Source of the DNA: a virus
DNA: 24,159 nt
IMG/VR virus record: IMGVR_UViG_3300043395_000260
Location: 1 to 24,159 of that record
Direction: 5' to 3' (one strand)
This document shows positions 10,150 through 22,750 of the stretch, one piece after another. A program made the position numbers and the translations under genes. Each line of letters starts with the position of its first letter. The stretch's first letter is position 1. Below the pieces are notes generated by a model that worked only from the letters and a program-made list of their open reading frames with translations, was not told the origin of the DNA and did not search any database.

Positions 10150-10584
10150 ATGGAAACACTAGAGCAAGTTCTAAAAATGTGGGATACAGATGCGGAGATG
10201 GATCGGACAGAACCATCTAAAGAACTGTTAAAAATACCCACACTACACAGTAAGTATCTTGGTATTCTTACCAAGCATAAGATTGCCTCAAAGAAAGCAC
10301 ACTTTGATTACCTGCGTATGCGTAAGGTAAAATGGGAATACTTTACCGGTAAAATGACTAAAGATGAGTTGGAAGAATATGGTTGGGAACCTTTTCTATT
10401 CACACTCAAGTCTGATATCAACACATACTTGGAGGCCGATAAAGACCTTATCAAGTTGTTGGAGAAAAAGGTTTACCATGAAGAAGTCATTTCTGTAATC
10501 GAATCAATCATGTCTGAACTGAAACAAAGAACTTGGCAATTGAGAGATTTTATATCTTGGGAGAAATTTGTTGCAGGACAATGA
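10150..10584 (+). CDS. uvsY: UvsY recombination mediator
   Basis: Recombination mediator protein that loads UvsX recombinase onto gp32-covered single-stranded DNA. At 144 residues it is close to T4 UvsY (137). Matching segments include a LHSKYLGILTKHKIASKKAHFDYLRMRK-type basic helix, DINTYLEADKDLIKL (T4 VLSADKDVLKV), and the terminal RDFISWEKFVAGQ (T4 MRAFEAGK). It is transcribed from its own consensus promoter with a leader of only about 20 bases. That leader has no Shine-Dalgarno sequence. It overlaps the uvsW start by 14-17 bases. Secure as UvsY; the ATG at 10150 follows an in-frame stop nearby. Confidence 0.9.
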   Translation: METLEQVLKMWDTDAEMDRTEPSKELLKIPTLHSKYLGILTKHKIASKKAHFDYLRMRKVKWEYFTGKMTKDELEEYGWEPFLFTLKSDINTYLEADKDLIKLLEKKVYHEEVISVIESIMSELKQRTWQLRDFISWEKFVAGQ

Positions 10585-12067
10585 CCATTTAACCATAACA
10601 AAGGTTAACGAAGTATACGCCAAAGTGGATTGTGAACGCCACCTTGCGAGGGAACTATCCGAATACTTCACTTTCTTAGTGCCAGGTTACCAGTTCGTTC
10701 CAGCCTATCGGAATCGAATTTGGGACGGTAAGATTAGACTATTCAATTTACAAACCAGCCAAATATATCTGGGGTTGATTCCATATCTAATAGAATTCTG
10801 TGACGAACGCAGTTACACATACACCCACGATATCGTTAAAGATGAATATTCAGTTTATCTGGCGGAAAAATTCATCAAATCTTTGAATCTACATTCAAAC
10901 GGCAAACCAATCTCTGTTAGAGAACACCAAATGAAGGCATTTATTCACACTATGAGAAATCGTAGAGGTCTAATATTGTCTCCTACGGCATCAGGTAAAT
11001 CATTAATCATATATCTAATTTGCAGACAACTTTTGGACTTCCAAAACATGAAAGGTCTGATTATAGTTCCAACGACCTCTTTGGTTGAACAGTTATATTC
11101 AGACTTTGGTGACTATGCAAGTGAGTCTGGTTTCAAAAATTACATGCATGTTCATAGAATTTACCAAGGCAAAGAGAAACACACAGATAAAGCAATAACA
11201 ATATCCACATGGCAATCTCTATATCAAATGCCGCCAGAATACTTTGAACAATTCGATTATGTGATTGGTGATGAAGCACATTTATTTAAAGCACAGTCAC
11301 TAACAACAATTATGACTTCATGTAAAAATACAAAGTATAGAATTGGTTTGACTGGAACTTTGGATGGAACCAAAACACACAAATTGGTATTGGAAGGTTT
11401 GTTTGGTCCAGTTGAACGAGTAATCACCACAAAAGAATTAATTGACAAAAAAGAATTGTCCGATTTTAAAATAAAGTGTCTCATACTAAAACATAATGAT
11501 AAGATATGTGAGGAAATGAAGGACAAAAGTTATGTGGATGAAATTCAATATTTGATATCAAGTGAACCTAGAAATAAATTCATTCGTAACTTGACCATTT
11601 CATTAAAAACAAACACATTGGTGTTATATCAAATGGTTGAAAAACATGGTCAAATACTATATGATATGATTAAAGATAGAGCTGGTGACCGCAAGGTATT
11701 CTTCATACACGGCAAGGTGGAAACGGAAGACCGTGAAGAAGTTAGAAAAATTATGGAGGTAGAAAATGACGCTATCGTGGTGGCTAGTTACGGGACTTTT
11801 AGCACTGGCATTAATATACGCAATCTTCACAATATTATCTTTGCGAGCCCGTCTAAATCACGTGTGCGTAATCTACAAAGCATTGGACGGGGTTTGCGCC
11901 AATCTAGCGGCAAAGAACAAGCAACTCTCTACGATATTGCAGATGACCTCAGACACAAAAAACACATGAACTTTACTCTGCAACATTTCGTGGAACGAGT
12001 GAAGATATATAATGAGGAGAAGTTCTCATTTAAGATTTATAATATAGGACTAAAAAATGGCAGTTAA
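10568..12067 (+). CDS. uvsW: UvsW recombination helicase, non-ATG start
   Basis: Superfamily 2 helicase/translocase that unwinds R-loops and branched recombination intermediates and helps switch origin-dependent to recombination-dependent replication. Length (about 499) and N-terminal domain (WDGKIRLFN, T4 NWDGRIRLLD) match T4 UvsW. Motif I is SPTASGKS (138-145), motif II DEAH (235-238), motif III TGTLDGTK, and motif VI QSIGRGLRQ. There is no in-frame ATG before residue about 122. Initiation must be at TTG 10568 or TTG 10571, both after GGAG (10559-10562) and inside the uvsY end, indicating translational coupling. The C-terminal part also contains a nested +1-frame ORF at 11766-11969. Confidence 0.93.
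   Translation: MLQDNDHLTITKVNEVYAKVDCERHLARELSEYFTFLVPGYQFVPAYRNRIWDGKIRLFNLQTSQIYLGLIPYLIEFCDERSYTYTHDIVKDEYSVYLAEKFIKSLNLHSNGKPISVREHQMKAFIHTMRNRRGLILSPTASGKSLIIYLICRQLLDFQNMKGLIIVPTTSLVEQLYSDFGDYASESGFKNYMHVHRIYQGKEKHTDKAITISTWQSLYQMPPEYFEQFDYVIGDEAHLFKAQSLTTIMTSCKNTKYRIGLTGTLDGTKTHKLVLEGLFGPVERVITTKELIDKKELSDFKIKCLILKHNDKICEEMKDKSYVDEIQYLISSEPRNKFIRNLTISLKTNTLVLYQMVEKHGQILYDMIKDRAGDRKVFFIHGKVETEDREEVRKIMEVENDAIVVASYGTFSTGINIRNLHNIIFASPSKSRVRNLQSIGRGLRQSSGKEQATLYDIADDLRHKKHMNFTLQHFVERVKIYNEEKFSFKIYNIGLKNGS
11766..11969 (+). CDS. Candidate nested gene inside uvsW: small single-pass membrane protein
   Basis: A 67-codon ORF read in the +1 frame relative to uvsW. It starts with ATG preceded by GGAGGT (11755-11760) at five bases, the best Shine-Dalgarno match in the window. 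The product begins MTLSWWLVTGLLALALIYAI, continues FTILSLRARL and ends in a polar 35-residue tail. That is one clean membrane segment (about residues 5-27) followed by a basic stop-transfer-like RAR. This layout resembles small phage inner-membrane proteins such as accessory lysis or signal-anchor proteins, but no family is recognised. GC content here is about 44 percent by hand count, visibly above the rest of uvsW. That may reflect double coding or simply the conserved helicase motifs. Real expression is unproven. Confidence 0.45.
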   Translation: MTLSWWLVTGLLALALIYAIFTILSLRARLNHVCVIYKALDGVCANLAAKNKQLSTILQMTSDTKNT

Positions 12068-21817: not shown

Positions 21818-22750
21818 ATGACAGAACACATTTTGTGGGTAGAAAAGTATCGTCCTAAAACAGTTGAAGATTGTATTCTTCCTGATAATATCAAATCAAC
21901 CTTTCAGGAATATGTAAACCGAAAAGAGATTCCCAACCTGTTGTTGTCAGGCACCGCAGGTGTAGGTAAAACCACAATTGCAAAAGCTTTATGTGAAGAA
22001 GTTGGTTGCGACTACATCGTAATCAACGGTTCCGATGACCGTGGCATCGGCGTCATGCAAGACAAGGTGAAGAACTATGCTACCTCTATGAGTTTTTCTG
22101 GTGGTCGTAAGGTTGTGATCCTAGATGAAGCTGACAATCTGACACCAGACGCACAAAAAGCCTTGCGTGGAATGATGGAAGAAGTCTCCAGTAATTGTTC
22201 CTTTATCTTCACATGCAACTTTAAGAATCGTATTTTGGATGCCATACATTCTCGTTGCACTGTAATTGATTTTAAACTAAATGGCAGTAAACAGAAGATG
22301 GCATCTTCGTTCTTTAAACGAGTTGAGTCTATTCTGGAACAAGAAGGAGTATCATATGATAAGCAAGTGGTTGCCGCAGTTATCACGAAACATTTCCCTG
22401 ATAATCGCCGTATTCTTAATGAGCTTCAGCGTTATAGTGTTAGTGGCACAATTGATAAAGGTATTCTGGCATCAGTTTCCGATGTGCAACTAAATGAGTT
22501 GCTCGAAGCTCTAACTAATAAAGATTTTTCTGCTTGCCGCAAGTGGGTCACAAACAACATAGACAACGATATGTCCAAAATTATCCGTAGTCTATATGAC
22601 ACACTTTATGACAAACTTAAACCCAATTCTGTTCCACAAATGGTTTTGATTTTGGCAAAATACCAATATCAAGGTGCGTTTGTTGCAGACCATGAAATCA
22701 ATCTTATTGCCTGCTTAACTGAATTGATGGTTGAATGTGAGTTCAAATGA
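21818..22750 (+). CDS. 44: Clamp loader large subunit gp44
   Basis: AAA+ ATPase that forms a 4:1 complex with gp62 and opens gp45 to load it at primer junctions. At 310 residues it is close to T4 gp44 (319). N-terminal WVEKYRPKTVEDCILP is the RFC-box-type start. Walker A is GTAGVGKT (45-52), Walker B ILDEAD (101-106), sensor 1 FTCNF, and the arginine-finger SRC (145-147). GGAG sits before the ATG; its stop overlaps gp62 (ATGA). T4 order 45-44-62-regA is kept. Secure. Confidence 0.95.
   Translation: MTEHILWVEKYRPKTVEDCILPDNIKSTFQEYVNRKEIPNLLLSGTAGVGKTTIAKALCEEVGCDYIVINGSDDRGIGVMQDKVKNYATSMSFSGGRKVVILDEADNLTPDAQKALRGMMEEVSSNCSFIFTCNFKNRILDAIHSRCTVIDFKLNGSKQKMASSFFKRVESILEQEGVSYDKQVVAAVITKHFPDNRRILNELQRYSVSGTIDKGILASVSDVQLNELLEALTNKDFSACRKWVTNNIDNDMSKIIRSLYDTLYDKLKPNSVPQMVLILAKYQYQGAFVADHEINLIACLTELMVECEFK

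Follow-up and report, generated by a model that had tools for sequence, protein, structure and literature searches.

A putative small membrane-protein gene overprinted on the helicase gene uvsW in one clade of T4-like phages

Does the +1 frame of the phage helicase gene uvsW encode a second, membrane-spanning protein? The question is raised by a 24,159-nucleotide stretch of viral DNA (IMG/VR record IMGVR_UViG_3300043395_000260, positions 1 to 24,159; here, the window), which is part of a T4-like phage and shows the gene order uvsY-uvsW-ORF-gp55-gp47 as in the phages Melnitz and Mosig. An initial annotation of the window, made from its letters alone, had proposed a genuine membrane-protein gene nested within uvsW (Table 1). 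Very small phages offer well-known examples of genes nested out of frame, and our literature search found no paper describing one in uvsW.

Table 1. The uvsW gene of the window and the features of the ORF nested in it
Feature	Positions	Strand	Remarks
uvsW helicase gene (host frame)	10568-12067	+	phrog_16, E = 2e-106; Pfam ResIII, UvsW_N, Helicase_C
Nested ORF	11766-11969	+	+1 frame of uvsW; 67 codons; tail poorly conserved
Shine-Dalgarno sequence GGAGGT of nested ORF	11755-11760	+	Within uvsW codons Met-Glu-Val (ATG GAG GTA)
Start ATG of nested ORF	11766-11768	+	Spans uvsW codons Asn-Asp (AAT GAC)
Predicted transmembrane helix	11775-11843	+	Residues 4-26, followed by basic/His residues (RAR in the window)

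The elements on which the proposal was built are present in the window: the 67-codon frame, the GGAGGT lying five bases before the ATG at 11766, and one strong hydrophobic segment (maximum 19-residue Kyte-Doolittle score, 2.36) were all confirmed, and the Shine-Dalgarno (SD) sequence and its spacing resemble those of real genes of the window (e.g., TATGGAGAATTTGA-ATG at 21818). The higher GC content reported for the segment is found locally (0.44 versus 0.36 for the whole of uvsW) but is not a conserved feature. Part of the rise is accounted for by the amino acids of the helicase motif (expected GC, 0.389 +/- 0.019) and another part by a GC3 of 0.41; since a GC3 raised in this way is restricted to the window and a few of the relatives near it, the rise is no general signature. 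Resampling of synonymous codons in this one sequence, with the ATG fixed, yielded a transmembrane (TM)-bearing ORF of at least 67 codons in 4.7% of draws, and a TM-bearing ORF in 0.6% of draws when an SD sequence was also required. The single-sequence chance of such an ORF is not extreme, and the case for a nested gene must therefore rest on conservation. As a negative control, we used a nested ORF with SD, ATG, and TM segment in the clamp-loader gene (22356-22493; 45 codons, +1 frame, AAGGAG, Kyte-Doolittle score 2.89), which is probably due to chance: of the six relatives read, most have lost its start, its SD, or its frame.

To place the window among its relatives, uvsW was gathered from viral contigs (eight scans) and annotated phages and dereplicated at 93%, and the resulting 285 sequences were used to build a tree. 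One clade of 83 members that includes the window (uvsW 68 to 100% identical) carries the ATG and SD and is marked by Met-Glu-x-Glu-Asn-Asp in uvsW. Its members are T4-like, Kyanoviridae-related phages and, on our reading of the metagenome sources, are mainly freshwater or lake derived. The closest cultured relatives are Methylophilales phage Melnitz (57% identity) and Pelagibacter phage Mosig (56%); these and the other marine clades mostly have Thr-Glu-... at the site, without the SD-plus-start pair. Rare scattered cases aside, the combination of ATG and SD is confined to the MExEN(D) clade, and the cultured and marine relatives examined lack it. The nested ORF is thus phylogenetically restricted, as an overprinted gene would be, and its start signal is not conserved in the control clades.

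Within the clade, the ATG is present at codon 1 in 78% of the 82 tips and at codon 1 or 2 in 98%, a second ATG at position 11769 being found in many relatives where the window has ACG. The SD is kept in 82% of 82 members, at least 28 codons are open in about 91 to 92% (82 to 83 members), and the joint signature of start, SD, frame, and TM segment is seen in 76% of 82 tips. The ATG with SD at 11766 is the only conserved (at least 40%) out-of-frame pair in a set of nine of the clade's genes, covering 3350 positions. An alternative frame that is open and equipped with a start signal (ATG 11766 plus GGAGGT), as expected of an overprinted gene, is therefore a conserved property of the clade. The expectation that the frame would hold in relatives is borne out insofar as the start and SD are kept across a deep clade, but in 7 of the 83 members the frame is interrupted before codon 28 is passed, and an eighth member has no start codon, with the losses scattered on the tree. 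About the first 43 codons are kept, the tail is not conserved, and the stop falls variously after 43, 51, 57, 61, or 67 codons. In the peptide alignment the hydrophobic class is conserved with no invariant residue, and 19 of the 21 +1 codons that differ in the nearest relative alter the residue. Some clades often have a +1 start farther upstream, at 11709; it was rejected as the beginning of the ORF, being cut off by stops at 11751/11760 in many members, the window included.

The strongest rival explanation is that there is no gene: the ORF would be a by-product of T-ending codons in helicase motif V and of the conserved Met-Glu-x-Glu-Asn-Asp that spells GGAG...ATG, kept by descent. T-ending codons are indeed in excess at motif V (uvsW 11771-11813) in all clades, even those with no startable nested ORF. 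Because of these codons, the +1 frame is also open and hydrophobic in the Mosig-like and Melnitz-like clades, which cannot start the ORF, and marine clades without ATG and SD match the window's clade in both respects; openness and hydrophobicity alone are therefore no evidence for a gene. Of the hydrophobic segment described by the initial annotation, the presence stands but the diagnostic value does not. A codon-resampling null strongly favored the nested ORF, as did permutation of same-residue columns (P < 1/2000); both were dropped as proof because the permutation is significant in the start-less clades too.

The Mosig-like, Melnitz-like, and other clades without the start were used as controls. 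When the pooled controls are subtracted from the clade, the +1 hydrophobicity has its whole-gene peak exactly at 11766, with no such signal at that place in frame +2; when the Mosig-like or the Melnitz-like clade is subtracted singly, the difference is smaller and is not the top window. That the excess is specific to the start-bearing clade and peaks at the start speaks against a by-product. So does a simulation of uvsW-only evolution on the clade tree (150 runs from an ORF-like root, with the site-specific codon preferences of the control clades and one substitution rate assumed for all columns), which falls short of the observed retention: start, SD, frame, and TM segment are kept together in a mean of 17% (maximum, 33%) of tips versus the 76% observed, and the SD alone in 43% (maximum, 74%) versus 82%. 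When this simulation was run along the whole gene, 11763-11766 took ranks one to three among 460 windows for +1 hydrophobicity excess and was unremarkable in frame +2; for openness it ranked 13th, with the top windows (11802-11829) lying in the same segment. As judged from these sequence comparisons, the start signal, frame, and hydrophobicity of the 11766 ORF are kept beyond what uvsW and the local codon bias would produce.

A nested gene should also restrain synonymous change in its host. Early pairwise synonymous rates over all 67 codons gave no reduction (O/E, 1.01). Within the clade, the 60-bp bin 11756-11815 has the fewest synonymous changes of uvsW (0.77 of the gene mean), and the relative synonymous change at 11756-11857 is 0.83 versus 0.97 to 1.19 in the control clades without the start. 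Of the synonymous constraint envisaged for 11750-11970, the part limited to the first ~20 codons thus holds, but the tail (codons about 44 to 67; rate, 0.96) is unconstrained. The reduction is mild, and dips of 0.67 to 0.74 occur elsewhere in uvsW of other clades; constraint beyond the host frame, which overprinting would impose, is nevertheless seen both in this bin and in the excess over the simulation.

Codon choice at the start signal adds to this. At 11756, the SD codon is GAG in a ratio of 68:15, though GAG makes up 21% of all Glu codons in clade genes, and the Asn codon of the start is AAT rather than AAC by 64:4, with the fewest synonymous changes among the conserved Asn columns of uvsW. 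In the clade's uvsW, no other Glu or Asn column is as strongly biased, which argues against a mere by-product. The codons favored at the nested ORF (AAT, TTT, GAG, and ACT) run directly counter to the preferences of the window's structural genes (AAC, TTC, GAA, and ACA), and an optimal or high-expression codon choice is thereby ruled out as their cause. GTG at 11780 (Trp in +1) was considered as a special column and set aside, since the unrelated column 11990 is equally biased. The Gly codon GGA at 11807, which places Glu inside the nested helix, is over-used and counts against a simple TM constraint. A second rival accepts the nucleotide constraint but ascribes it to some other element within uvsW (a folded RNA, an internal promoter, or a binding site for a protein); it is improbable: the windows of low synonymous change do begin at ~11702, slightly upstream of the ORF, but no Rfam match comes near the gathering score, the fold z-score is 0.28, promoter-like matches are at the level of shuffled sequence, and the pattern is frame specific, appearing in +1 and not in +2.

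Two further peculiarities were observed in uvsW of relatives. In Melnitz-like loci (e.g., L269-L348), the position equivalent to window 10842 has an out-of-frame (+1) ATG with SD in 93% of the clade; the ORF is open for 54 to 60 codons, is mostly polar, and is either incidental or a further candidate for a nested gene. Its conservation means that such ORFs can possibly be conserved incidentally. In two contigs, inserted ORFs split uvsW at codons about 397 to 411, at the site of the nested ORF (L076, 1538-3317; L552, 3-1518), and the main inserted ORF has no Pfam match. Both contigs carry one additional base that brings the +1 ATG into the reading frame of the 3' half of uvsW (MELLLLLRSVHFSTGIN...), and translation of this half of the split helicase may therefore begin at the ATG of the nested ORF; this is a hint from two contigs, short of proof, that initiation at the nested ATG is possible. 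L076 has a second insertion (835-1554), an ORF of about 240 aa that interrupts uvsW near codon 266 and matches HNH endonuclease weakly, with a score under the curated cutoff.

On balance, we regard the 11766 ORF as probably a real overprinted gene for a small membrane protein, over about its first 43 codons. The proposal of a genuine nested membrane gene thus survives, but weakened and for a shorter stretch: the conservation of start and SD and the lowest synonymous bin favor it, but only these codons are gene-like, because the tail is unconstrained and the stops are variable. Our confidence goes no higher owing to the mildness of the synonymous reduction, the single rate of the simulation, the ORF at 10842, and the over-used GGA at 11807. 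The absence of a gene is the distinctly less probable reading, although it accommodates the losses, the free tail, and the comparable conserved non-TM ORF at 10842 in the Melnitz-like clade.

If the gene is real, it would have arisen de novo in one T4-like clade, in the +1 frame of uvsW. Ribosomes would attach to the uvsW message at GGAG(G) and initiate at 11766 (or, in relatives, at the adjacent 11769 ATG), and translation would yield a bitopic membrane peptide of 43 to 67 residues whose helix derives from the T-ending uvsW codons, with the T shifted to the second codon position. AlphaFold2 predicts one helix (H2-65; mean pLDDT, 82). The positive residues after the helix suggest an N-out/C-in insertion into the inner membrane; Lys/Arg make up 13% of residues 27 to 34 in the clade versus 1 to 8% in the controls. 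In T4, a late promoter drives the production of UvsW (PMC3016281), and the nested peptide would therefore most simply be late too, expressed together with uvsW.

Searches for homologs of the nested peptide in PHROGs, Pfam, the PDB, and phage records found none, and the T4 holin profile Phage_holin_T (PF11031) gave no Pfam match to it; a search for the T4 holin in six clade contigs gave no match, and its positive control likewise gave none. Single-TM phage holins and small lysis peptides such as T7 gp17.5 and MS2 L are short, with one TM helix and a charged end. The 11766 peptide resembles them in all three respects, with no family match; their genes are standalone or differently overlapping, unlike the 11766 ORF. 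A closer parallel is gene E of phiX174, which is likewise nested in a shifted frame of its host, gene D, has a single TM segment, and turns T-ending codons of the old frame into Leu-rich second positions. The pair D/E has been presented as a de novo origin by overprinting, and E has a lytic TM segment (PMC8227390). The 11766 ORF differs in having no detected sequence homology to E, in its host gene (a helicase in a large double-stranded DNA [dsDNA] phage), and in being shorter, with a tail that varies in length, and action on the cell wall is only a candidate role for it. Membership in the E-type family found no backing in Pfam, PHROG, or PDB matches or in an invariant residue of the ORF alignment.

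By analogy with this layout and topology, our best guess is that the product might be an envelope-active accessory peptide for lysis, lysis timing, or superinfection exclusion, a specific role that we put forward as speculative and on the whole unlikely. Slightly less doubtful, yet still tentative, is the picture of a lysis, lysis-timing, or exclusion peptide that was born by overprinting in uvsW, belongs to a large T4-like clade from fresh water, and is absent from all annotations. Were that true, dsDNA myoviruses too would grow phiX174-E-like genes inside core genes. If the nested gene is real, new membrane genes can arise within the core genes of T4-like phages, and genes of this kind are being overlooked by annotation pipelines in phages that abound in aquatic habitats. 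The clades would then form a natural series, in which the Mosig-like and Melnitz-like phages, with a hydrophobic but unstartable +1 frame, stand beside the clade in which an SD and an ATG appeared.
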